DNA from: Dehalococcoidia bacterium
Lineage (GTDB): Bacteria; Chloroflexota; Dehalococcoidia; Tepidiformales; Tepidiformaceae
DNA length: 38,411 nt
Assembly: GCA_009841435.1 (NCBI GenBank)
Contig: VXLW01000118.1
Coordinates: 1 to 38,411, forward strand
Direction of reading: 5' to 3'
Notes under the pieces: model-generated
Databases searched by the model: none
What the model was told of the DNA's origin: nothing
Seen by the model: the letters and a program-made list of their open reading frames with translations, nothing else
Translations under genes and position numbers: made by a program
In this document: piece by piece, positions 10,038 through 26,272 of the stretch
Layout: each line of letters begins with the position of its first letter
Position numbering within the stretch: position 1 is the first letter of the stretch

Positions 10038-11363
10038 CTAGCGGTCGGGACCGTAGAGGTAGTTATCCAGCGCGTAGTGCATCGCCCGGATGCGGCGCTC
10101 CTCGCTGTTCAGCAGGATCCCGCTGAACCCCTTGGAGTGGTACGACTCCTGCACGATCTGCGCCTGCGCCATGTCCTGCTCCAGCGCCTCGAACAGCTCC
10201 GGATGGTTCCGCGCCGTTCCGTACACCGTCGCCGGGCGGCGGGGCGGCGGCGCCCCCTCCGGCACGCGCGCGTACACCTGGTAGTCCCAGTAGCACTTGT
10301 TCGGGTCCGTCGGGTGCGGCCGCGGCCGGAAGAACAGGAACGATCCGTAGGTGAAGTTGAATGTCAGGTTCGGGAAGATCATGTAGTGGAAGTTGTCCAC
10401 CAGCTGCTCATCGACCAGCAGGTCCATGTCCATGCCGATGCGCTTTCCCCACTCGCGGCGCGCCTGTGCCAGGAACGGCGGCAAGTCCCGCGACTTGCCC
10501 TCGAACGTGTCCGGGTCGACCCCGCAGTCCTCCAGGTTCTGGCGCTGCTGGCGTGTCAGCTCGTCCTGGTTCTCGTAGCCGAAGCGCTGCGCCAGGTCGT
10601 CCGTCCAGCTCGGATCGGGCAGGCCCATGCGGATCAGCTGGCGGCTGTGCTTGCCCTCGTCGTACACGTCCAGCGGCGTCGCCAGGTGGTCGAAGTACTC
10701 CAGCAGCTGCGGGTGCAGCGCCGGCAGGTGGTAGATCTCGGCGAACTGGTCCACCGCGAACTTCCAGTTGCACGACCACTCGAGCACGTAGTCGTCCACC
10801 ACGTGGTACTGGTCCAGCCGGTACGGGTCGAGGTGCGAGGGCATCACGCCCAGGTACTCGTGCAGCGACTCCGCCTCGTCGTCCATGTTGAACCAGACCC
10901 AGCCCGCCCACGTCTCCACCCGGACCTCGGTCAGGTGCTGCTTGTCCTCGGGAATGCCGTTCACGAAGTGCTGCCGATCGGGAACCGTGTTCAGCTGGCC
11001 CTCGATGTCGAACGTCCACAGGTGGAAGGGGCACTGCAGCTGCTCCGCGTGGCCCATGCCCACGCTCGGGCGAATGCGGCTGCCGCGGTGCGGGCAGATG
11101 TTGTAGTAGCCCTTCACCTCGTCCTCGGACGTGCGGATGAAGATGAACGACTCCCGCCCGATCTCGTGGACGAAGTTATCGCCCACCTCGGGGATATCGG
11201 CCAGCGGTCCCGCGTTCAGCCAGACCTTCGTCCACATTCGCTCCCACTCGAGCTTCGCGAACTCGGGGGATGTGTACCGTTCCGTGTCGATAAGGCCCGT
11301 CCCCATGTCGGGCTCTTCGGTTCGCCCCGTTGGCGTCGGGGCGGGGCGGTTCTCGAGCACCAT
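10038..11363 (-). CDS. Rieske non-heme iron oxygenase, large subunit (copy 1)
   Basis: The 441-residue product is a ring-hydroxylating-type oxygenase alpha subunit that would hydroxylate or dealkylate an organic substrate using O2. The Rieske [2Fe-2S] ligands are C90, H92, C111 and H114 (CPHRGS ... CPFHLW). The mononuclear iron site is in NWKFAVDQFAEIYHLPALH with H212 and H217; a likely third ligand is the Asp of EQDMAQ near the C terminus. I chose ATG 11363 because GGGAGGGC precedes it and the paralogue at 16430-17758 starts equivalently. No small subunit or dedicated reductase is adjacent. It heads a likely operon with the DUF5343-like and CoA-transferase genes. Confidence 0.93.
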   Translation of the reverse strand: MVLENRPAPTPTGRTEEPDMGTGLIDTERYTSPEFAKLEWERMWTKVWLNAGPLADIPEVGDNFVHEIGRESFIFIRTSEDEVKGYYNICPHRGSRIRPSVGMGHAEQLQCPFHLWTFDIEGQLNTVPDRQHFVNGIPEDKQHLTEVRVETWAGWVWFNMDDEAESLHEYLGVMPSHLDPYRLDQYHVVDDYVLEWSCNWKFAVDQFAEIYHLPALHPQLLEYFDHLATPLDVYDEGKHSRQLIRMGLPDPSWTDDLAQRFGYENQDELTRQQRQNLEDCGVDPDTFEGKSRDLPPFLAQARREWGKRIGMDMDLLVDEQLVDNFHYMIFPNLTFNFTYGSFLFFRPRPHPTDPNKCYWDYQVYARVPEGAPPPRRPATVYGTARNHPELFEALEQDMAQAQIVQESYHSKGFSGILLNSEERRIRAMHYALDNYLYGPDR

Positions 11364-16429: not shown

Positions 16430-17758
16430 TTAGCGGTCCGGGCCGAAGAGGTACTGCTCCAGGGCGTAGTGCATCGCCCGCACGCGGCGCTCCTCGCTGT
16501 TCAGCAGGATGCCGCTGAACCCCTGGGAGTGATACGACTCCTGCACGATCTGCGCCTGCGCCATGTCCTGACCCAGCGCCTCAAACACCTCGACGTCGTG
16601 CGCCGTCCCCCGCACCGTCGCCGGGCGCGGCGGAATGGGCGTGCCCTCCGGCAGCCGCACATACGTCTGGTAGTCCCAGAGGCACTGGTCCGGGTTCGTC
16701 GGGTGCGGACGCGCCCGGAAGTACGTCAGCGACGTGCCGCCGATGTTCAGCGTGATGTTCGGGAAGATCATGTAGTGGTAGTCGTCGATCAGCTGCTCGC
16801 CGTGGAGCGCCGAGACGTCCACGCCCATCGCCTCGTACAGATCGCGGCGCGCCTCGATGATCGCGGGGCGGACATCGTTCACCCCGCCCTCGAACTCGTC
16901 CTGCTCGATGCCGACCGCGGCAAGCTGCTGCCACTGCGAGTCGGTAATCATCTCCTTGTCGGTGTAGCCGTGGCGGCGAGCCATGTCGTCCGTCCAGGCG
17001 CCCCCGTCCGGGTACCCCTGGCGGATGAGCTGGCGGCTGTGCCGGCCTCCGTCGTACACGTCCAGCGGCGTGCCCGCCGTGTCCCACCACTCGATCAGCT
17101 GCGGGTGCAGCGCCGGCAGGTGGTAGATCTCGGCGAACTGGTCGACCGCGAACTTCCAGTTGCAGTCCCAGATGAGCTGGTAGTCCTGCACCAGGTGGTA
17201 TTCCTCGAAGTGATACGGGTCGAGGTGCGAGGGAATCACGCCCAGGAAGTCGGTCAGCGACTCCGCCTCGTCGTCCATGTTGAAGAACACGAACGGGCCC
17301 CACGTGTCGACCCAAACCTCCGCAAGCTGCTGCTTGTCCTCGGGAATGCCGTTCACGAAGTGCTGCCGGTCGGGAACCGTGTTCAGCTGCCCTTCGATGT
17401 CGAACGTCCAGAGGTGGAAGGGGCACTGCAGCTGCTCCGCGTGGCCCAGGCCAACACTCGGGCGCAGGCGGCTGCCGCGGTGCGGGCAGATGTTGTAGTA
17501 GCCCTTGATCTCGTCCTCGTCCGTGCGGATGAAGATGAACGACTCCCGCCCCAGTGTGTGCGTGAAGTAGTCCCCCACCTCCGGGATGTCGCAGATCCCT
17601 CCGGCGATGTTCCACGTCTTCGTCCACATCCGCTCCCACTCGAGCTTCGCGAACTCGGGGTCGGTGTAGCGCGTCGGGTCGATGAGCCCCGTGCCCATGT
17701 CGGGCTCGTCCACCCGCTCCAGCGGCGTCATCGGCATTTCTTGATTCTGGGTGACCAT
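16430..17758 (-). CDS. Rieske non-heme iron oxygenase, large subunit (copy 2)
   Basis: The 442-residue product is a close paralogue of the Rieske oxygenase at 10038-11363, with long identical runs such as HAEQLQCPFHLWTFDIEGQL. Rieske ligands are C91, H93, C112 and H115, and the iron-site helix NWKFAVDQFAEIYHLPALH is conserved. The start ATG 17758 has GAGGGAGGGG just upstream; in-frame sequence to 17815 is not needed. TATCCT at 17793-17788 is a candidate -10. Divergence between the copies is concentrated after residue 220, the substrate-pocket half, which suggests different substrates. No small subunit, ferredoxin or reductase is adjacent. Confidence 0.93.
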   Translation of the reverse strand: MVTQNQEMPMTPLERVDEPDMGTGLIDPTRYTDPEFAKLEWERMWTKTWNIAGGICDIPEVGDYFTHTLGRESFIFIRTDEDEIKGYYNICPHRGSRLRPSVGLGHAEQLQCPFHLWTFDIEGQLNTVPDRQHFVNGIPEDKQQLAEVWVDTWGPFVFFNMDDEAESLTDFLGVIPSHLDPYHFEEYHLVQDYQLIWDCNWKFAVDQFAEIYHLPALHPQLIEWWDTAGTPLDVYDGGRHSRQLIRQGYPDGGAWTDDMARRHGYTDKEMITDSQWQQLAAVGIEQDEFEGGVNDVRPAIIEARRDLYEAMGVDVSALHGEQLIDDYHYMIFPNITLNIGGTSLTYFRARPHPTNPDQCLWDYQTYVRLPEGTPIPPRPATVRGTAHDVEVFEALGQDMAQAQIVQESYHSQGFSGILLNSEERRVRAMHYALEQYLFGPDR

Positions 17759-18227: not shown

Positions 18228-19118
18228 CTAGGCCTCCCGCATCGGATTCATCACCTCTTCCACGAAGCGGAGCACCGGCTCCGTCGAGGTCGGGTGCCCG
18301 AAGTCGCAGGTGAAGTGCCGCACGCCCAGCTCGCGGAAGCGCTCGAGCACCTCGCGCCACGCCTCCGACTCCTGGCTGTTGTTCGGCAACCCCACCTCGC
18401 GGGTCACGCTGATGGTGATGTCCGAGGGGTCGCGCCCCGCTTCCTCGGCCGACTTGAGCACGATGTCGCGCTTCCGTGTCCAGTTCTCCTCCCACTCATC
18501 CGTCGGCCACCAGAACGTGTTCCACCCGTCGGCCTGGCGCCCCACCATCGGCAGTGAGAGCTGCTCGCCCTGCGCCCCCACCATGATCGGGATCATCGGG
18601 TCCGGCCGGGGCGGCGCCTTCGCGTCCTTGATCGTGTAGTAGCGGCCCTCGAAGCTCGGTGACTCTTCCGTCCACATCAGGCGGCAGATCTGGATCGTTT
18701 CCTCAAGCTGCCGGATGCGCGTTGCTGTCGAGGGGAACTCGTACCCGTAGCGCTCGAACTCCTCCCCCCGCCAGCCCGCCCCGATGCCGAGGATGAAGCG
18801 CCCGCCCGAGAGCGTCTGCAGGGTCGCCGCCATCTTCGCCGTCAGCGCCGGGTTGCGGTAACCCTGGCCCATCACGTGGTGGCACAGCTTCACCGTGGGG
18901 AACTTCGCCGCCAGCCACGTCATCGTCGTCCACGACTCCAGGAACGGGTCGTTCTCGTTCGCGAACCCGTAGAAGTGGTCCGCGAGCCACACGCAGTCGA
19001 AGTGCTGGAACGCCGTCGGCAGGATGTTCCGCTCCTGGTACATCACGATCGGCTCGTTGTCGCTGTCCGGCAGGCCGATCACCGGGGATACCCACCCGAA
19101 GGTCAGTTCGTCTGTCAC
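18228..19118 (-). CDS. Luciferase-like F420/FMN-dependent oxidoreductase
   Basis: The 296-residue LLM oxidoreductase shows the TIM-barrel blocks FDCVWLADHFYGF, LQTLSGGRFILGIGAGWRGEEFERYGYEFPS and IPIMVGAQGEQLSLPMVGRQADGWN. It is a distinct subgroup from the other five copies; the barrel strand after GAGW carries RGEEFERYG. The start is GTG at 19118 with AAGAGGAGAC upstream; the open frame to 19187 lacks family resemblance. TATCCT at 19184-19179 is a candidate -10 box. It is divergent from the zinc alcohol dehydrogenase. Substrate unknown. Confidence 0.9.
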   Translation of the reverse strand: MTDELTFGWVSPVIGLPDSDNEPIVMYQERNILPTAFQHFDCVWLADHFYGFANENDPFLESWTTMTWLAAKFPTVKLCHHVMGQGYRNPALTAKMAATLQTLSGGRFILGIGAGWRGEEFERYGYEFPSTATRIRQLEETIQICRLMWTEESPSFEGRYYTIKDAKAPPRPDPMIPIMVGAQGEQLSLPMVGRQADGWNTFWWPTDEWEENWTRKRDIVLKSAEEAGRDPSDITISVTREVGLPNNSQESEAWREVLERFRELGVRHFTCDFGHPTSTEPVLRFVEEVMNPMREA

Positions 19119-19178
19119 GCGCTTGTCTCCTCTTGGCCCGCGTTCGCCGCGATCTGCGGCCTCATGGGGGCGCGAGGC

Positions 19179-19246
19179 AGGATACACGAGCAGCCTCCCG
19201 ATCGCCGTTCACGCCTGCTCCCAGGCCCCGCCCAAAGGGGTAAGGT
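19179..19246. promoter_or_regulatory. Divergent -10 boxes, LLM / alcohol dehydrogenase
   Basis: TATCCT on the minus strand (19184-19179) and TAAGGT on the plus strand (19241-19246) match the recurrent TAnnnT pattern and sit about 60 and 45 bases from their start codons. No clear -35 boxes accompany them. Confidence 0.4.
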
Positions 19247-19291
19247 TGCGCGACACCGTTCCGCGCCTCCATCGGCGCCGGGAGGACTGCC

Positions 19292-20323
19292 ATGCGAGCC
19301 CTCGTCTACCGCGGCCACAAGCGCGTCGAGATCGAGAACGTGCCGGACGCCCAGGTCCCCGCTCCCGACGGCGCCCTCGTCCGAACCACCAACTTCGCCA
19401 TCTGCGGCTCCGACCTCCACGGCTACCACGGACCCGTCAACGAGGAGCGCATCGGCAACACGATGGGCCACGAGGCCATCGGCGAGGTCGTCGAGGTCGG
19501 CCCCGAAGTGCGCCGCATCCGCCCCGGCGACCACGTCGCCGTCTCGGCAGTCGTCGGCTGCGGCCGCTGCGAGGAGTGCCAGAGCCTCATCACCGCACGC
19601 TGCGCCAACAGCGAGACCCGCGTCCTCAACCTCGGCCAGGCCGAGGCCATCGCCGTCCCCGCCGCCGACTCCTCCCTCCTCCAGATCCCCGACGGCGTCA
19701 CCGACGAGCAGGCCGTCCTCCTCACCGACATCCTCCCCACCGGCTACAAGGGCGTCCGCGGCGCCGATATCCAGCCCGGCGGCACCGTCGCCGTCGTCGG
19801 CGCCGGCCCCGTCGGCCAGATGGCCCTCGAGACCTCCTTCCTCTTCGGTCCCTCCAAGGTATTCGCCATCGACCAGGTGCCCTACCGCCTCGAGGAAGCC
19901 GAACGCCTCGGCGCCATCCCCATCGACGCCAGCCAGGTCGACCCCGTCGAGGCCGTACTCGACCAGACCGGCGGGAAGGGCTGCCAGCACGTCATCGAGG
20001 CCGCCGGCCCCCAGGCGACCGTGCGCATCGCCTTCGGCGTGCTCGCCCACGGCGGCACCCTCTCCCAGGTGGGCGCCACCACCGACCCCGAGATGACCAT
20101 CAACCTCATGGCCCTTTTCTCGAAGGACCTCACCTACCGCGTCGGGCTCGTGTCGCCGCAGTACGCCTGGCCCGAGCTCGTCCCCCTCCTGCAGGAAGGC
20201 AAGATCCACCCCGAGCGCATCTTCACCCACCACCTGCCGATGTCCGATGGCCCCCGCGGGTACGAGATGTTCGACAACCGCGAAGACGGCGTGATCAAGG
20301 TCATGCTCGACCCGACCCGCTAG
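19292..20323 (+). CDS. Zinc-dependent alcohol dehydrogenase (MDR family)
   Basis: The 343-residue enzyme is a medium-chain dehydrogenase/reductase that oxidises an alcohol with NAD(P). Catalytic zinc ligands are C38 (ICGSD) and H60-E61 (MGHEAIGEV). The structural zinc site has all four cysteines, C90, C93, C96 and C104. The nucleotide-binding motif is VVGAGPVGQMA. An unusually short segment joins the two zinc lobes and the C-terminal part has the YEMFDNREDGVIKVML end typical of the family. The ATG has GGGAGGAC upstream. Its stop TAG shares CTAG with the stop of the convergent membrane-protein gene. It may oxidise an alcohol made by the oxygenases nearby. Confidence 0.93.
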   Translation: MRALVYRGHKRVEIENVPDAQVPAPDGALVRTTNFAICGSDLHGYHGPVNEERIGNTMGHEAIGEVVEVGPEVRRIRPGDHVAVSAVVGCGRCEECQSLITARCANSETRVLNLGQAEAIAVPAADSSLLQIPDGVTDEQAVLLTDILPTGYKGVRGADIQPGGTVAVVGAGPVGQMALETSFLFGPSKVFAIDQVPYRLEEAERLGAIPIDASQVDPVEAVLDQTGGKGCQHVIEAAGPQATVRIAFGVLAHGGTLSQVGATTDPEMTINLMALFSKDLTYRVGLVSPQYAWPELVPLLQEGKIHPERIFTHHLPMSDGPRGYEMFDNREDGVIKVMLDPTR

Positions 20324-20988
20324 CGCCGCTCAAGAAAGCTCCCCCAGGTCCTCGGCTCCCCGGGCTTCCGCTTCTGGGGCGGCTTGAGGTGCGGCAGGAA
20401 GCGGTCCATCACGAGGTTCCACAGCGGCCAGAGCGCCAGGGATGCCGCCCACGTGTAGGCCCCGTACAGCCACAACGTCAGCAGCATGCGCATCTTGGCG
20501 AACCCGGGCGTGTGTTCTCCTACGCTCGCGAGAAAGCCCTTCGCCTCCAGTGCGATGCGCATGAGCAGCTCTCCGTCGTGGGAGATCACGTTCGTCTGCG
20601 AGGTGGCGAAGAACACCAACAGCACGACGAAGGTCCGAAGCACGGCCACCACGAGCGCCGCCCCTGCCGCCACCCGCACGTAGCCGCTGCGGTGCAGGAA
20701 CCACAGGGCTACCAGCAGGTTGGGCAAGCCCGCAATCGTCAGCAGCAGCCAGGTCGGCCAGAAGTCGTAGTAATAGAGGGTCGCCTGCAGGTTCGCCTCC
20801 ATCCTTGTGGTGGGAAGGCCCAGCGAACGTGCGTCGAGCTCTTCGGCGAACCCGTAGATCAGTGCGAGGCTCAGGGGTGCGGTCAGGAGAGGCGTCAGGA
20901 CGAGCCACAGAAACGGCGATCGCCTGCCCAGCCCGGCGAGCACCTTCCTCAGCGCTCCCGTCGGTTCCGTTCCCCGTTCGCCGTGCAC
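20320..20988 (-). CDS. Novel four-helix membrane protein, paralogue 4
   Basis: The 222-residue product belongs to no family I recognise. Predicted helices are at about 26-48, 77-98, 103-128 and 167-193. An external loop of about 30 residues lies between helices 1 and 2 and another between 3 and 4, and positive charges at both ends suggest N-in, C-in. Shared family marks are TPLLTAPL, YYYDFW before helix 2, GYVRVAA and RT in helix 3, DGELLMRI in the second loop, and a C-terminal RFLPHLKPP ... EPRTWGSFLERR. The GTG start at 20988 has no Shine-Dalgarno site, and TAGAAT ends six bases upstream, so the transcript is probably leaderless. It is the last of four tandem paralogues. Confidence 0.82.
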   Translation of the reverse strand: MHGERGTEPTGALRKVLAGLGRRSPFLWLVLTPLLTAPLSLALIYGFAEELDARSLGLPTTRMEANLQATLYYYDFWPTWLLLTIAGLPNLLVALWFLHRSGYVRVAAGAALVVAVLRTFVVLLVFFATSQTNVISHDGELLMRIALEAKGFLASVGEHTPGFAKMRMLLTLWLYGAYTWAASLALWPLWNLVMDRFLPHLKPPQKRKPGEPRTWGSFLERR

Positions 20989-20994
20989 GACCGG

Positions 20995-21000
20995 ATTCTA
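20995..21000 (-). promoter_or_regulatory. Leaderless -10 box TAGAAT
   Basis: TAGAAT is separated by six bases from the GTG start, placing the expected transcript start at or next to the start codon. The gap holds no ribosome-binding sequence. Confidence 0.55.
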
Positions 21001-21018
21001 GCCCCGCGAATCAGCGAC

Positions 21019-21726
21019 CTACGCCATGTCCGAGGAGCGCTGGCGCCGCTCGAAGAAGCCGCCCCAACCTCGGGGCGTCCCGGCCTGCCGCCCTTGTGGC
21101 GGCTTCAGGTGGGGCAGGAAGCGTTCCATCCCGAGGTTGAAGAGCCCCCAGGCCAGGACGCTCGGTCCCCACGCGAACGCGCCGAACAACCACATCATCA
21201 GCGGCAGGCGGACCAGTGCCTCCCGCGTCGATGCTCGAGGCTCGAGCGCCAGGAAACCCGTTCGCTCCACCTCGATGCGCATCAGCAGTTGCCCGTCGTG
21301 GATGATCAGGTCGGACTGCGCGATCGCGAAGAACAGGAACAGGACACCCACGGTCCGTACCAGCGCCAGCACAAGGGCAAGCGCCGCCGCCACCCGCATG
21401 TACCCGCTGCGCTGGAAGAACCACAACACGACCAGCAGGTTGAGCACGAGCCCCGGCCCGATCAGCAGCAGTGCCGTCTGCCAGAAGTCGAAGTAGTGGA
21501 GCGTGGCCGGGATCAGCTCGTTTCGCCAGACGGGCAGCCCCAGCTCCCTCGCGCTGAGCTCTTGCGCGAAGCCGAACACGAGCACGGCGGTCAGGGGCGC
21601 CGTCACCACCGGCGTCACCACCAGCCACGCCAGGGGCGAGTAGCTCCCCATTCGGCGCCACGCCCTCCCGATCACGCCGAGGGCGCCTGCGTCTGCTGGA
21701 GCAATGTGAGAGGGCGTCGTTGCCAT
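21019..21726 (-). CDS. Novel four-helix membrane protein, paralogue 3
   Basis: The 235-residue protein is a paralogue of its neighbours. Helices lie at about 32-54, 82-104, 109-135 and 172-198. It carries the same marks: TPVVTAPLTAVL, HYFDFW, GYMRVAAALALVLALVRT, HDGQLLMRI and RFLPHLKPPQGR ... WGGFFERR. It has the longest tail, with 7 residues (QRSSDMA) after the ERR. It is most similar to paralogue 4, with which it shares FLPHLKPPQ exactly. The ATG at 21726 has no Shine-Dalgarno site, and TAGACT lies six bases before it, so it is probably leaderless. Function unknown; the conserved charged loop could bind a ligand or partner. Confidence 0.82.
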   Translation of the reverse strand: MATTPSHIAPADAGALGVIGRAWRRMGSYSPLAWLVVTPVVTAPLTAVLVFGFAQELSARELGLPVWRNELIPATLHYFDFWQTALLLIGPGLVLNLLVVLWFFQRSGYMRVAAALALVLALVRTVGVLFLFFAIAQSDLIIHDGQLLMRIEVERTGFLALEPRASTREALVRLPLMMWLFGAFAWGPSVLAWGLFNLGMERFLPHLKPPQGRQAGTPRGWGGFFERRQRSSDMA

Positions 21727-21732
21727 GGGGGC

Positions 21733-21738
21733 AGTCTA
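21733..21738 (-). promoter_or_regulatory. Leaderless -10 box TAGACT
   Basis: TAGACT lies six bases from the ATG of paralogue 3, with only G/C bases between. The arrangement matches that of paralogue 4 and of the first gene of the cluster. Confidence 0.55.
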
Positions 21739-21753
21739 GCGCGGTGGAGGACC

Positions 21754-21788
21754 GACCACCGATCACCGACCACCGGTCACCAATCCTC
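21754..21788. repeat. Heptad tandem repeat (consensus RRYCACC), five units
   Basis: Five consecutive 7-base units, GACCACC, GATCACC, GACCACC, GGTCACC and AATCCTC, lie between the stop of paralogue 2 and the promoter of paralogue 3. The first four fit RRYCACC exactly and the fifth is degenerate. A second array of the same type is at 37181-37215. Confidence 0.7.
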
Positions 21789-22441
21789 TACTGCCTCTGG
21801 AAGAAGCCGCCCCAGCGCCCGGGTTCGCCCTGGGAGCGTTCGCGGGGCGGCGCCAGGTGCGGGACGAAGCGCGACATGAGCGGCTCGTACGCCTGCCAGA
21901 TCACGAGCGTGAGCACCCACATCCCCAGCCCGCCCATCCACGCCGTCATCAGGATGCTCAGCGTCGCGAACGACGGCGAGGGGACCGAGGACGCGCCCGC
22001 CTCCCCGATGGGGATGCGGAGGATGAGTCCGTCCTCGCGCATCACATCGCCCGTCAGCCAGAGGACCGAAGCCATCGGCACGACGAACGTGCGCAGCAGG
22101 GCGAGCGTCAGCGCGAGCCCTGCCGCGATCCGCACGTAGGTCAGCTCGTGCCGCAGCCACCAGGCCACGGGCAGGTTCACCACGCCCGGCACAGTCAGCA
22201 CCACCCAGATGACCCAGAAGTCGAAGTAGAAATAATGCGTCCGATCGAGCTGGCGGTTCTCCCGCGTCCACTCCACCTCGACCAGCCCGAAGGCCTGCGC
22301 ATCCAGGGTGCCGCCCACGGTGAAGATCAGGAGTGCGCTCAGCGGCAGGGCTACCGCCGGCGTTACCTGGAGCCACTCGAACGGGGACCGCGTCCCCAGC
22401 CGGCTCCGGAGGCTCCCGATCACCGCTGCACCGTCCACCAC
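21788..22441 (-). CDS. Novel four-helix membrane protein, paralogue 2
   Basis: The 217-residue protein has four predicted helices (about 22-44, 75-97, 102-128 and 160-185). Shared marks are TPAVALPLSALL, FYFDFW, TYVRIAAGLALTLALLRT, EDGLILRI and RFVPHLAPPRER ... GRWGGFFQR. The N-terminal cytoplasmic stretch SLRSRLGTRSPFEWL corresponds to the RSPFLWL of paralogue 4. The GTG start at 22441 follows the previous gene by 18 bases and has no strong ribosome site, so translation is probably coupled to paralogue 1. The helix-2 mark N-L is kept (VVNLPVAWWL), although the following residues differ from the WFL(H/N/Q)R seen in the other three. Confidence 0.8.
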   Translation of the reverse strand: MVDGAAVIGSLRSRLGTRSPFEWLQVTPAVALPLSALLIFTVGGTLDAQAFGLVEVEWTRENRQLDRTHYFYFDFWVIWVVLTVPGVVNLPVAWWLRHELTYVRIAAGLALTLALLRTFVVPMASVLWLTGDVMREDGLILRIPIGEAGASSVPSPSFATLSILMTAWMGGLGMWVLTLVIWQAYEPLMSRFVPHLAPPRERSQGEPGRWGGFFQRQ

Positions 22442-22459
22442 CTGGTCGCCCGGAGCCCG

Positions 22460-23125
22460 CTAGCGCCGCGTCAGGAAGCCGGTCCAGCGCTTCGGTGCGT
22501 CGAGGCGCGGCCCTCCGGGCGGGTCGAGGTTGCGCCAGAAGCGCGCCATCAGCGGCTCGTACGCCCGCCACACCAACACCGTGATCCCCCAGAAGATGGC
22601 GCCGCCGACCCAGGCCGCCACGAGGATCCTTCGGATCGCCGTCCCCTCCGTGGGGGAGGTGATGTCGGTCACGACGCCCGTCGCTCCGACCTCGACCCGC
22701 AGGAACAGCCCGCCGTCGTTCACGACGGCGATCTGGGAGATGGCGACGGTCGCCAACGGCACGATGAGCGTCCGCACCAGCCCGAGCGTGAGCGCCACCA
22801 CTGCCGCTACCCGCACGTAGCCGTTGCGGTTGAGGAACCAGAGTAGGGCCAGCAGGTTCAGGGCGCCCGGCGCCGCCAGCAGCAGCCAGGTCCGCCAGAA
22901 GTCGAAGTAGTAGAAGCACTTCTGGGCGATGAACCCGTCGAACTTGCAGAGGTCGTTCTCCGGCAGGCCCAGCGCTTCCGCGCTGTGCTCGCCGCCCGCC
23001 GTGAACAGCAGCAGGGCCGCCAGCGGGGCCGTCGCCAGCGGCGTCACGGTAATCAGCAGGAAGGGCAGCCGTCGCTTCAACCAGCTCCACGCGCGGCGAG
23101 GGCCGGTCGGTTGGTCGTTACGCAT
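22460..23125 (-). CDS. Novel four-helix membrane protein, paralogue 1
   Basis: The 221-residue protein starts at ATG 23125, whose GGAAGGTG ribosome site lies within the end of the upstream gene. The two reading frames overlap by eight bases, so they are translationally coupled. Helices are at about 20-43, 76-98, 103-128 and 164-190. Family marks are TPLATAPLAALLL, YYFDFW, GYVRVAAVVALTLGLVRT, NDGGLFLRV and RFWRNLDPPGGP ... PKRWTGFLTRR. It alone has two cysteines (C60, C70) in the first external loop, which could form a disulfide. It has lost the PH of the PHL motif (here RNL). Most likely works with the HTH-ectodomain protein encoded just upstream. Confidence 0.82.
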   Translation of the reverse strand: MRNDQPTGPRRAWSWLKRRLPFLLITVTPLATAPLAALLLFTAGGEHSAEALGLPENDLCKFDGFIAQKCFYYFDFWRTWLLLAAPGALNLLALLWFLNRNGYVRVAAVVALTLGLVRTLIVPLATVAISQIAVVNDGGLFLRVEVGATGVVTDITSPTEGTAIRRILVAAWVGGAIFWGITVLVWRAYEPLMARFWRNLDPPGGPRLDAPKRWTGFLTRR

Positions 23126-24926
23126 CGTCACCTTCCGAGGGAAGGTTGTGCTCGATGCGGGTCTCGTCAAGGTCGGCCAGCAGGGGAAGCATGCGGTGGG
23201 GTTGGTGCGGAAGGGCCAGCACCACCTCGTTGCTCCCGTCGCCGCCCCACGGCCCAGCGTGCGCCGGAGCCGCCTCCGTTGGGTTCATGCCCATCCAGCG
23301 GCTGGATGCCCGGTCGTAGACATCCGTCCGCCCGAACGCGATCAGCGAAGGGTCATCGGGCGATGGCGCAGCGCCCCGCATGTCCGGGTGCTGGAACCAC
23401 TCGCCAGAAGGCCCCGGCGGCTCGGGAAGCGGCTCCAGCCGCGATCCGTCCCTGCTCACGAAGCTGTACCCCACCCTTCCCCCGATCTTCGTCTGCATCA
23501 CCAGCCCCGAAGAGTCGGCGAGCCAGCGAGCGCCGCCGAGCTCGTCGCCGTAGTTGAGTCTGGCCGACCGGACACGGAAAAGGTTCCGCCCAGTCGTTCC
23601 GTCGATGACAAGCACCGTACTCGTCTCCTCGAAGAGGGGTGGTTCGGTCCCCGGGACCGCCAGCACGCGTTCACCCGCTGCCAGCGACCCGTCCGGGGAG
23701 ACAAATGCGCGGTCCACCCGCACGCGTGTCATCCCCAGATGATCGCCCCCCCAGCCGAGACGCGCCACAAAGGTCGCGAAGATGCCGTACCCCAGCGTAA
23801 GCGGAGGGCGTGTGGGCCAGTAGGAGAACGGCAGCAGGAACGACTCCCCATCGCTCGCCGGCGTTGTCGCGTGGAACAGGATCCGCTGGAGGGTCGACTG
23901 CCGCTGGGGCGAGAACACGCTTGTTACCCATCCCGTGGCCCCGTCCAGCATGAACAGCGAGGGGTACTCCTGTGGCTGCTGGAGCGCCAGGAACACGCGC
24001 CGCCCGATGGGGTCGAAGAAAGGTGGAATAGAGGGGAGGAGCGTCCCTGTGAGCTCGAACTCCGCCCGTTCCTCCAGCTGCCCGTTCGTGAGCACGTACC
24101 GCGCCCGCTTGATCAGGTGCGGCCCCAGCTCCTCTTGCACCACCTCGAAGAGCGCTCCGTAATCGGAGAAGCCGAGCAGCCTCAGGCGATCCTCGGGCCA
24201 CGTCCACGATCGTCCCGTTGTCCGCTCGTGGAGCGCGTTCGTCGTCGCAATGAACCGCCTGCCCGCGCCCGCCTGGTAGACGGGCGGGTCGTTGCCCGGC
24301 TCGGCGACCTGCCAGCCCGTCACGCTCCCTGCTCCTTCGCCCCGCGTCCGCAGGAAGAAGATGCCGTGGTCCTCCGTCAGCGGCTGCCCCGGCTCGAGGG
24401 TCAGCTCCTTGAAGATGCCCGTCGCCGGCTGCAGCGCCGCGAGCGCTGGGGGCACGGGCGTGAGCGTGGGCGGAACCGGGACAGGTCGCGGCGGACGCAC
24501 GACCGTGTCCTCTTCCTCCGTCTCCCGCGTAATCAGGAACGCCCCTCCCGCCGCCAGGCCCGCGACTCCCGCCGCCAACCCCAGGAACGCCCGCCGCGAG
24601 ATTCCCCGGCGCGGCTCCGGGGCGCTCGGCCGCCGCCGCCCCGGCCCGCCGCCACCCCCTCCGGGAGCTCGAAGAGGAGGTCCCTCGCCGCCCCTCGCCT
24701 GTTCCGCTCGCCCGAGGCTCGGCGGCAGCAGGGGCTCGCCGTCCTCCACCTCCCGTCCCGGCGGCACGCCCCGGATGCGCGCGTGCGCATCGGGAACGCT
24801 GATGCCGAGCCGAACCGCGATCTCCGCGACCGGCTTCCCCTCCGCCAGCAACTCCTCGAGCAGCCGCGAGGTCGCGTCCGCGCCCTCCGTCGGGCGGAGA
24901 TCCCTGGGTTGCTCCCCGTCGGCCAT
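23118..24926 (-). CDS. HTH - Tat-like/TM anchor - ectodomain protein (possible membrane-bound regulator)
   Basis: The 602-residue protein has an unusual order of parts. Residues 19-52 look like a small helix-turn-helix (RLLEELLAEGKPVAEIAVRLGI). Residues 53-107 are a Gly/Pro/Arg-rich linker. Residues 110-132 hold SRRAFLG followed by an Ala/Gly/Leu helix, which reads as a twin-arginine-type signal or a single membrane helix. Residues 134-165 are acidic, then Pro-rich. Residues 166-602 are a soluble, beta-rich ectodomain with several Gly-Asp/Trp repeats, possibly propeller-like. The predicted topology is HTH inside, ectodomain outside, as in ToxR/CadC-type regulators. No known family is recognised. 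It overlaps the following membrane gene by eight bases and is preceded by TAGAAT seven bases from ATG, so probably leaderless. Confidence 0.78.
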   Translation of the reverse strand: MADGEQPRDLRPTEGADATSRLLEELLAEGKPVAEIAVRLGISVPDAHARIRGVPPGREVEDGEPLLPPSLGRAEQARGGEGPPLRAPGGGGGGPGRRRPSAPEPRRGISRRAFLGLAAGVAGLAAGGAFLITRETEEEDTVVRPPRPVPVPPTLTPVPPALAALQPATGIFKELTLEPGQPLTEDHGIFFLRTRGEGAGSVTGWQVAEPGNDPPVYQAGAGRRFIATTNALHERTTGRSWTWPEDRLRLLGFSDYGALFEVVQEELGPHLIKRARYVLTNGQLEERAEFELTGTLLPSIPPFFDPIGRRVFLALQQPQEYPSLFMLDGATGWVTSVFSPQRQSTLQRILFHATTPASDGESFLLPFSYWPTRPPLTLGYGIFATFVARLGWGGDHLGMTRVRVDRAFVSPDGSLAAGERVLAVPGTEPPLFEETSTVLVIDGTTGRNLFRVRSARLNYGDELGGARWLADSSGLVMQTKIGGRVGYSFVSRDGSRLEPLPEPPGPSGEWFQHPDMRGAAPSPDDPSLIAFGRTDVYDRASSRWMGMNPTEAAPAHAGPWGGDGSNEVVLALPHQPHRMLPLLADLDETRIEHNLPSEGDDA

Positions 24927-24933
24927 GGGATCG

Positions 24934-24939
24934 ATTCTA
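24934..24939 (-). promoter_or_regulatory. Leaderless -10 box TAGAAT
   Basis: TAGAAT lies seven bases from the ATG of the HTH-ectodomain gene with no ribosome-binding sequence between them. It is probably the promoter of the whole cluster. Confidence 0.58.
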
Positions 24940-24965
24940 GGCGAGCGCAGAGCCGCCCGGCCCGG

Positions 24966-25400
24966 TCACATCGAGAGCTTGCCCCAGTCTCCGCTCAGGT
25001 CCGCGGGCCCGCGGTACAGCGCCTCCAGGCGCCGCGTCTGGATGTACCACTGCCCGTCGATGCGCGTGTACGTATCGAAGTAGCAAAGCGAGTTCATCGT
25101 GCGGCCCGCCTCGCGGTTCAGGAACTCGCCCATGTACCAGCGCCCCGTGGCCGTGTCCCCCGTCACGTCGTCGATGACGCCCGAGTACACGTGCATGTAG
25201 ACGTTCGGGATGCTCGCCATGATTCGCGTCCAGTCGGCCACGACCTCCTCGCGGCCCGTGCGCGTGGTGCTCGTGATCCACTGCCCGTCCGGTGCCCAGG
25301 TCGAGCCCCAGGCCTCCGGGTCGAAGCGGTTGACCGCGTCCACGTAGCGCTCCGCCACCTGTCGCAGGGCGGTGTAGTCCTCAACCGTCGGTGCTCCCAT
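24966..25400 (-). CDS. SnoaL-like (NTF2 fold) protein
   Basis: The 144-residue product is SnoaL-like, the third in this window. Blocks are VEDYTALRQVAERYVDAVNRFDPEAW, the YMHVYSGVIDDVTGDTATGRWYMGEF strand pair and YTRIDGQWYIQTRRLEALY. The Asp and Trp of DPEAWGSTWAPDGQW are typical of the family. The ATG has GAGGAGGAC upstream, and TAGGCT at 25430-25425 is a candidate -10. It is divergent from the dienelactone hydrolase gene. The 39 bases separating it from the HTH-ectodomain gene contain that gene's own promoter, so the two are probably independent units. Confidence 0.86.
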   Translation of the reverse strand: MGAPTVEDYTALRQVAERYVDAVNRFDPEAWGSTWAPDGQWITSTTRTGREEVVADWTRIMASIPNVYMHVYSGVIDDVTGDTATGRWYMGEFLNREAGRTMNSLCYFDTYTRIDGQWYIQTRRLEALYRGPADLSGDWGKLSM

Positions 25401-25424
25401 GTCGTCCTCCTCGCTGGCTCGCGC

Positions 25425-25483
25425 AGCCTACCCGAAACGGACCCCGCCGCGCGCTCCCCACGCGACTCGCCGCGCCGTAGGAT
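25425..25483. promoter_or_regulatory. Divergent -10 boxes, SnoaL-like / dienelactone hydrolase
   Basis: TAGGCT on the minus strand (25430-25425) and TAGGAT on the plus strand (25478-25483) lie 24 and 27 bases from the respective starts, both followed by ribosome-binding sites. They match the recurrent TAnnnT pattern. Confidence 0.45.
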
Positions 25484-25510
25484 TCGCCCCACCACTGCAG
25501 GAGGCTCCCC

Positions 25511-26272
25511 ATGACCGACACCCGCGCCTACGAAGGCCTGATCGCCGAGACCATCACCGTCCAGGGCGATGGCGGCGACTCCATCTACGCTTACTTCGCG
25601 CGGCCCCTGGGCGAAGGGCCGTTCCCCGCGATGCTGCTCCTCCACCACATCCCCGGCTGGGACGAGTGGTACAGGGAGACCGCCCGCCGCTACGCCCACC
25701 ACGGCTACGTCACCATCTGCCCCGACCTTTACTACCGCGACGGCCACGGTGAGCCCGAGGACGTTGCCGCCAAGGTCCGCGCCGAGGGCGGCGCCCCCGA
25801 CGACCGCGTCGTCGGCGATGCCGACGGCTGTATCGCCTACCTCCGCTCCCTCCCCTACGTGACCGGCAAGGTCGGTGTCATGGGCACCTGCTCCGGCGGA
25901 CGCCATTCCTTCCTCGTCGGCTGCCGCTCCAGCGAGGGCGTCGACGCCGTCGTCGACTGCTGGGGCGGGAACGTCGTCATGCCCCCCGAGAATCTCTCGG
26001 AGCGCCAGCCCGTCGCCCCCATCGACTACACCGCCGACCTGGCCGCCCCACTCCTCGGCCTCTTCGGGGAAAACGACTTCAGCCCCACGCCCGATCAGGT
26101 CGCCGAGCACGAGGCCGCCCTCCAGCGCGAGGGGAAGGACTACGAGTTCCACATGTACCCCAACGCGGGGCACGGGTTCTTCTACTACAACTACCCCCAG
26201 GCCTACGCCGCCGAGGCCGCCGTCGACGGTTGGGAGAAGATCTGGGACTTCCTCGGCCGGAAGCTGAGTTAG
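25511..26272 (+). CDS. Dienelactone hydrolase family protein
   Basis: The 253-residue alpha/beta hydrolase has the dienelactone-hydrolase triad: nucleophile C127 in GTCSGG, D189 in GENDFSP and H221 in NAGHGFF. The N-terminal block YAYFARPLGEGPFPAMLLLHHIPGWDEWYRETARRYA is typical. Family members hydrolyse the lactone formed after ring cleavage or related lactones and esters, in the cytoplasm. The cysteine nucleophile supports true dienelactone-type chemistry over a serine esterase. The ATG has AGGAGGCTC upstream. A DUF6295-like gene follows 11 bases later and an MFS exporter after that, so the three may be one operon. Confidence 0.92.
   Translation: MTDTRAYEGLIAETITVQGDGGDSIYAYFARPLGEGPFPAMLLLHHIPGWDEWYRETARRYAHHGYVTICPDLYYRDGHGEPEDVAAKVRAEGGAPDDRVVGDADGCIAYLRSLPYVTGKVGVMGTCSGGRHSFLVGCRSSEGVDAVVDCWGGNVVMPPENLSERQPVAPIDYTADLAAPLLGLFGENDFSPTPDQVAEHEAALQREGKDYEFHMYPNAGHGFFYYNYPQAYAAEAAVDGWEKIWDFLGRKLS

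Follow-up and report, generated by a model that had tools for sequence, protein, structure and literature searches.

The described systems closest to the locus treated here are regulators tethered to the membrane. Transmembrane transcription regulators (PMC10269533) have an N-terminal helix-turn-helix (HTH)-like domain, a single transmembrane (TM) helix and an extracytoplasmic domain. In VtrA/VtrC and ToxR/ToxS (PMC9214523), a tethered HTH-TM-ectodomain protein is accompanied by an adjoining or overlapping gene for a membrane partner, and evolution is fast. These features have counterparts at a locus of a Dehalococcoidia bacterium of the family Tepidiformaceae (GenBank assembly GCA_009841435.1, contig VXLW01000118.1), of which positions 1 to 38,411 of the forward strand form the window analyzed here. 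Five minus-strand open reading frames (ORFs) lie there between a convergent gene for a zinc-type alcohol dehydrogenase (19292-20323) and a SnoaL_4-like gene (24966-25400). They encode P602, a protein of 602 residues, and four paralogous membrane proteins, M1 to M4.

From their observed anatomy, paralogy, distribution, copy-number differences, -10 boxes and shared fast divergence, we tentatively read these genes as a genus-specific surface-sensing cassette that evolves fast, with the M proteins as accessory membrane subunits beside the tethered regulator P602; our confidence in this reading stays well short of even. P602 would be a membrane-tethered one-component regulator, with the HTH in the cytoplasm, a Tat-like helix as anchor, and a possible propeller ectodomain outside. 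The M proteins would offer two outer loops as a predicted beta-structured surface, together with a cytoplasmic tail carrying genus-invariant residues. Their most likely part would be an accessory one at the membrane, sensory or modulatory, in which they help to sense or to set the state of P602. M1 would be translated with P602 and the other M genes tuned from their own promoters, while M copy number and sequence would be altered by duplication, perhaps also by allele exchange. For this scheme we infer the membrane orientation, DNA binding, Tat export, contact between P602 and M, a ligand and target genes. Its strongest support comes from the gene overlap in five of eight genomes, from the shared divergence, and from the conserved HTH and tail.

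Gene layout and -10 boxes

An earlier note on this DNA had described a minus-strand run of five genes whose 602-residue member overlaps the first small one, and this description holds. All five ORFs are present, and P602 (23118-24926) overlaps M1 by 8 nt when M1 is given its favoured ATG start (22460-23125, 221 residues; an alternative TTG start gives 22460-23170, 236 residues). M2 (21788-22441, 217 residues) follows after 18 nt, M3 (21019-21726, 235 residues) after 61 nt, and M4 (20320-20988, 222 residues) after 30 nt, with a 4-nt overlap between M4 and the convergent alcohol dehydrogenase gene. The 8-nt overlap of P602 with M1 occurs in five of eight genomes (the window genome and those coded G184, G224, G233 and G242); a short gap is found in G323 and G251, and the M1 start is unsure in G216. 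The SnoaL_4-like gene is the upstream neighbor of P602 on the same strand, 39 nt away, and adjoins M1 directly in G092; its membership in the cassette is doubtful. The same note took the cluster for a system inserted among catabolic genes. Its presence at the same site in all nine genomes of the genus argues against a recent insertion. Outside the genus, an empty site was sought beside the SnoaL homologues of G314, G288, G271 and G353, and the flanking order was found in none of them.

Nor does the run, presented earlier as a single system, look like a single transcription unit: three of its genes, P602, M3 and M4, carry a TANNNT box apiece, which makes one operon improbable. These leaderless-type -10 boxes are TAGAAT for P602 (24934-24939), TAGACT for M3 (21733-21738) and TAGAAT for M4 (20995-21000), all on the minus strand. 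The hexamer stands 6-7 nt before the start in all seven P602 orthologues examined (once as TAAAAT), in five of seven for M3, in three of four for M4, and in both cases for the gene labelled M4', as TAGAAT or TAGACT; such a box precedes none of eight M1 and none of eight M2 genes. Among the 30 other genes of the window, as called by our own gene caller, none has a TANNNT box 4-9 nt upstream of its start, and on position only, 8 of 2229 RTG sites in the window have one. The hexamer corresponds to the leaderless -10 pattern that has been predicted in bacteria, four of 12 Chloroflexi genomes among them (PMC3160421). Across the window's genome, CTAGAMT-N5-7-RTG is found at 30 places and a reversed-pattern control at 12, and 24 of the 30 precede an ORF of at least 100 residues, three of them in the cluster. 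Because so many ORFs carry it, the box looks like a general promoter type; the idea that TAGAMT marks a special regulon was rejected, the pattern being widespread and the other ORFs looking unrelated by eye. A conventional promoter scan between 20200 and 25600 turns up no sigma-70 site having a -35 box on the minus strand (and one on the plus strand, 0.2 expected), so that the -10 boxes by themselves carry the promoter claim, and terminators are no commoner than chance (2 against 1.7 expected, one inside P602). The cluster is read as having at least three transcription starts, as far as promoter motifs can indicate.

Two very long antisense ORFs on the plus strand, 19024-21879 (951 residues) and 22929-25514 (861 residues), span the cluster, and are most likely an effect of high GC.

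P602 and the M family

P602 consists of an HTH-like stretch (residues 18-52), a variable linker, a twin-arginine-like SRRAFL motif with a TM helix (110-132), and an ectodomain from about residue 170 to 602. The HTH stretch is 82-100% identical in the six orthologues that gave an alignment, against 42-82% for the linker, also in six; a contig end truncates P602 in G216, no alignment was obtained for the linker of G251, and P602 is absent from G092. Three helices are predicted at 14-52 in a low-confidence model, while matches to Pfam HTH models reach only E 0.067-0.18, and PF00196, the mark of the LuxR/GerE family, is unmatched at E up to 1. Hydropathy gives a single TM helix (114-132), as in transmembrane transcription regulators, and an SRR-type motif with one TM helix is found in all seven full-length P602 orthologues of the genus. 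The curated Tat model TIGR01409 scores 13.6 bits, under its cut-off of 16.7, and TatC is present in all nine genus genomes. The AlphaFold model of P602 is poor (mean pLDDT 43.5). Among the best 50 rows from Foldseek, its leading matches are DPP-IV, prolyl endopeptidases and TolB, with E from 9e-7 and TM-scores, taken by query length, of only 0.14-0.23; these are propeller proteins, and a beta-propeller ectodomain is no more than plausible. Of the architecture proposed in the earlier note, HTH, anchor and ectodomain, the single TM helix is clear and the HTH conserved, while the HTH stays under the Pfam cut-offs and the fold of the ectodomain is uncertain.

The ectodomain is homologous to longer proteins of the same genus, with 28-37% identity over the longer stretches and 45% over one short stretch. 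P602 belongs with them to a family of the HTH-anchor-ectodomain kind; the copy scanned, L060, opens with a clear LuxR (GerE) domain (E 2.3e-15). A short contig of G314 carries three tandem genes that resemble the HTH-anchor-ectodomain type (L085:466-5539), all of which match the P602-family profile.

The M proteins had been described as four paralogues of four predicted helices each. Their paralogy is beyond chance, M1, M2 and M4 matching M3 at 38-54% identity (E 4.8e-33 to 3.6e-68) and all M pairs at 37-52%; by hydropathy, M1 to M3 have four helices and M4 has three. No further M copy is found in the window's assembly (89.8% complete) at E up to 10. The AlphaFold2 model of M1, the only M protein modelled (27 aligned sequences, mean pLDDT 76.4, pTM 0.69), has four long helices (9-43, 76-98, 102-129 and 160-196) and beta strands in loops 1-2 and 3-4. 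These loops probably face outside, because the N-terminus is positively charged. As the earlier note supposed, the libraries searched hold nothing described that corresponds: Pfam, NCBIfam and PHROGs give no usable family, PADLOC matches none of the five window proteins, a PDB sequence search stops at E 0.4, the M1 fold has no PDB match by Foldseek at E up to 1 (best 1.1), and M1 is unmatched in plasmid and phage collections. Three candidates were set aside as chance: DUF6332 (two of 27 proteins at E 0.065-0.44; M4 scores 11.6 bits against a gathering score of 25), the NCBIfam antiporter subunit NF009305 (one of 27, E 0.0068), and phrog_11506 (one of 27, E 0.068).

Distant relatives do exist. 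A profile built from four of them (G078 twice, G130, G051) matches 24 of 393 genomes of the class, in 14 of 226 genera: nine of the genus, three that were used to build the profile, and 12 others, two of these marginal (E ~0.002). It recovers the window's four M genes at E 2.7e-14 to 3e-5. Over 14 distant rows (which omit the marginal genomes G347 and G031; L142 and L150 share one genus, and L150 is a fragment), a core is kept: P21 in 12/12 and P34 in 13/13 (for these and W172, counting the rows that have a residue there), N90 in 11/14, W96 in 14/14, R105 in 13/14, a basic residue at 118 in 13/14, P123 in 14/14 (16/22 in the genus) and W172 in 11/13. Position 118, in TM3, is R in 21 and K in one of 22 genus rows. 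In the tail, R195, W214 and F217 do not vary across all 22 genus rows, nor do M193, R195, P202, W214 and F217 across 19 rows; among the distant rows, where the tail alignment is mostly gaps, R195 and W214 occur in 0/14 and F217 in 2/14. Being fixed in the genus and nearly absent elsewhere, these residues indicate that the genus form of M has an added conserved tail. On this signature, M is a diffuse Dehalococcoidia family that is recognizable by sequence and unmatched to any described family in the libraries searched.

Distribution, divergence and competing readings

A class-wide search finds M in 11 of 393 genomes, namely all nine of the genus, with 30 M genes, and two weak cases elsewhere. 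A search of the phylum with A2 yields G051 (E 1.1e-5) beyond the window genome, together with nine weaker matches (E 0.0012-0.0092), several having stops, which were set aside. Six of the nine genus genomes are named as metagenome-assembled genomes of Chloroflexi or Dehalococcoidia; some labels look to us like sponge samples. The neighborhood search that the earlier note proposed shows the gene order recurring in the genus with a variable number of M genes: four in the window, G184, G224, G233, G323 and G216, three in G242, two in G251 and one in G092. P602 is present in eight of the nine genomes and absent from G092. Judged by best identity and position, counterparts of M1 occur in 9/9 genomes, of M2 in 8/9 and of M3 in 7/9, although in a tree of 30 genus and two distant rows M1 is not a supported clade. 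The fourth gene belongs to the M3 lineage (98/99) in the window, G184, G224 and G233 (the G233 copy being loosely placed), whereas in G323 and G216 it joins the M2 lineage (97/94); because the parents differ, the fourth copy was gained at least twice.

The earlier suggestion of a heteromeric membrane complex finds no support as a fixed assembly, given one to four copies, fourth copies of different parentage, and M3 and M4 with -10 boxes of their own. It is likewise improbable that M1 to M4 form a heteromeric channel or transporter of fixed stoichiometry. Paralogues that have four TM helices and share a basic residue in TM3 (R118) would suit such a function, as would the weak antiporter-subunit match, but a fixed stoichiometry fits poorly with copy numbers of 1, 2, 3 or 4 by genome, with a fourth copy that groups with M3 in some genomes and M2 in others, and with separate -10 boxes; moreover the PDB offers no fold match at E up to 1, and the lone M1 of G092 suggests that a single M protein is functional.

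G092 and G251 fall outside the other seven genomes in a flank-protein tree rooted on its paralogue (91/96), and again in the left flank tree rooted on G092 (98/97); the right flank tree does not resolve G251 and G242. This order, read from sequence trees, fits a stepwise addition of copies; a loss of P602 and of M copies in G092 would fit equally well. Between M1 and the alcohol dehydrogenase gene, where the others hold further M genes, G092 has a 777-residue PMT_2-matching protein (L055:7122-9455). The catabolic block of the window holds paralogous proteins of 441 and 442 residues (10038-11363 and 16430-17758), which rooted a genus tree.

The cassette diverges far more than its surroundings. 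Averaged over the pairs of seven genomes, protein distances come to 0.27-0.31 in P602, M1, M2 and M3 against 0.02-0.05 in four flanking enzymes; between the window and G323, P602 and M1 to M3 differ by 35-39%, the four flanking enzymes by 1-6%, and a 296-residue neighbor by 1.0%. Over 21 non-independent pairs from these seven genomes, P602, M1 and M3 have distances whose correlation is 0.99 within the trio and 0.33-0.64 with the flanking enzymes, which correlate at 0.51-0.92 among themselves. The computable comparisons give a dN/dS of 0.023-0.162 for the cassette (14 of 20) and of 0.002-0.024 for the flanks (11 of 16), so all these genes, where computable, are under purifying selection. In close pairs, dN is 0.011-0.062 against 0.003-0.018. 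Across 20323-24926, dS is mostly lower than in the flanks, which raises dN/dS, though protein divergence is higher.

Such divergence might also mark a receptor, decoy or immunity array, in which phages, bacteriocins or host factors would meet the M proteins as diversifying targets on the surface or as proteins that confer immunity. Tandem copies numbering one to four, a fourth copy gained independently, and the gulf between cassette and flanking enzymes in the G323 comparison would all be expected of it. We nevertheless consider it quite unlikely: the genes are under purifying selection (dN/dS up to 0.162 where computable), the conserved residues lie also in the tail and helices, the five window proteins are unmatched in PADLOC, and no toxin is seen by eye among the neighbors.

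Exchange of alleles may have played a part. A flank-like topology, with G242 placed outside together with G251, was put to approximately unbiased (AU) tests for P602, M1 and M2, and is rejected by P602 (p 0.027) and M1 (p 0.004); these p-values are optimistic, because the grouping was chosen after the identities and the flank-protein tree had been seen. The pattern is compatible with exchange of cassette alleles between conserved flanks, and does not prove it. A bolder version, in which one tethered regulator would read several M co-sensors whose outer loops diversify around a fixed tail, copy number varying and whole alleles being swapped between close genomes by recombination in the conserved flanks, seems to us unlikely.

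Several observations weigh against P602 and M forming a sensing pair. G092 keeps M1, with the same tail, and has no P602. Around distant M relatives, P602 finds no match in 14 loci, and the P602-family profile finds there a single ORF (L057:1004-1678, E 5e-7), a gene that begins like a response regulator, judged by eye. Conversely, in nine loci around P602-family genes, seven of them from other genera of the family and the rest from G184 and G092, neither of two M profiles gives a match at E up to 0.1. The HTH of P602 is below every Pfam cut-off, and its Foldseek matches are weak evidence because the model is poor. M2 distances correlate at 0.86-0.89 with the cassette and also at 0.83 with the adjacent alcohol dehydrogenase, and M2, being uninformative, does not reject the flank-like topology (AU p 0.37); the flanks favour that topology without rejecting that of the cassette (p 0.078 left, 0.138 right). 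A shared genealogy of cassette genes can come from physical linkage alone. Finally, fast divergence special to P602 was rejected, since a GerE regulator locus without M genes is also fast: its GerE-TM-ectodomain proteins (L059:5893-7929, L060:5402-7438, L061:5721-7805, L062:1584-3623, L063:187-1662 and L089:5312-7465) are 51-80% identical in six genomes (last 560 residues, one truncated), against 90-97% for three neighbors in five genomes. With differences of 20-49% between genomes, this one locus of the genus is a hypervariable regulator locus in its own right.

These points give substance to a reading without partnership, in which M would be a tandemly expanded membrane family with a role of its own, such as envelope stress or small-molecule protection, and P602 an unrelated regulator settled between SnoaL and M1. 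Beyond the lone M1 of G092 and the nine P602-family loci without an M match, it is favoured by the separate -10 boxes and by the M relatives of other families, which in the loci read are single genes with varied neighbors, none of them matching P602. It has to account for the P602-M1 overlap in five of eight genomes, for the 0.99 correlation among P602, M1 and M3, and for P602 standing beside M in eight of nine genomes, and we regard it as a serious possibility short of probable. The earlier proposal that the small proteins form a complex or act as sensors with the first one thus stands in part: P602, M1 and M3 diverge in step, and G092 shows that the link to P602 is not obligatory. Within the favoured accessory-subunit reading, the partner of the M tail may be other than P602, because M1 occurs without it in G092, as do the distant M loci.

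A few distant loci have features of their own. In G078 an M-like gene and a DUF4440/SnoaL-like gene share a single base (L058:9494-10674), which echoes the SnoaL-M1 arrangement of G092; it is one case and may be chance. Two genes past this M-like gene, on the same strand, L058:8047-9072 has repeats that by eye resemble a TolB-type propeller. The genes that follow the M relative in two distant genomes (L141:3254-3562 and L150:490-1089) encode proteins that are alike and look like the PPOX class.

Comparison with tethered regulators

If the favoured accessory-subunit reading is true, the input of a one-component regulator would have been widened by duplicating its membrane partners and not the regulator. 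Even without a link between P602 and M, an undescribed family of membrane proteins in Dehalococcoidia now has a sequence signature, and the locus, which diverges far faster than its neighbors, offers a hint of what surrounds these bacteria outside the cell. The open-licence literature searched gave no published description of such a system.

P602 departs from the transmembrane transcription regulators by its degenerate HTH, Tat-like anchor, large ectodomain and neighboring four-TM array; its domain order still fits the general kind, with putative DNA binding (PMC10269533). Closer at hand are its GerE-TM-ectodomain relatives in the same genus (L060:5402-7438 and others), which share a homologous ectodomain, the same architecture and hypervariability. 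Unlike P602, L060 has a clear GerE domain and a C-terminal SH3-like match (25 bits, cut-off 27); the relatives lack the twin-arginine motif in three of three checked, and no M genes adjoin them in the loci read. DUF6332 resembles some M proteins in a weak local match and differs in that the match is below the gathering score.

The adjacent or overlapping membrane-protein gene that goes with co-component systems is found here in P602-M1, as a putative partnership. A lipocalin-like periplasmic partner domain is not seen, the M1 model having four TM helices with short beta loops. Set beside VtrC and ToxS, the cassette neighbor is a four-TM protein with no lipocalin-like domain, in one to four copies, some with their own -10 boxes; by analogy, the cassette would resemble ToxR/ToxS or VtrA/VtrC in arrangement and not in fold (PMC9214523). 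We therefore place it as a variant of transmembrane one-component regulation that contains one undescribed protein family, M.

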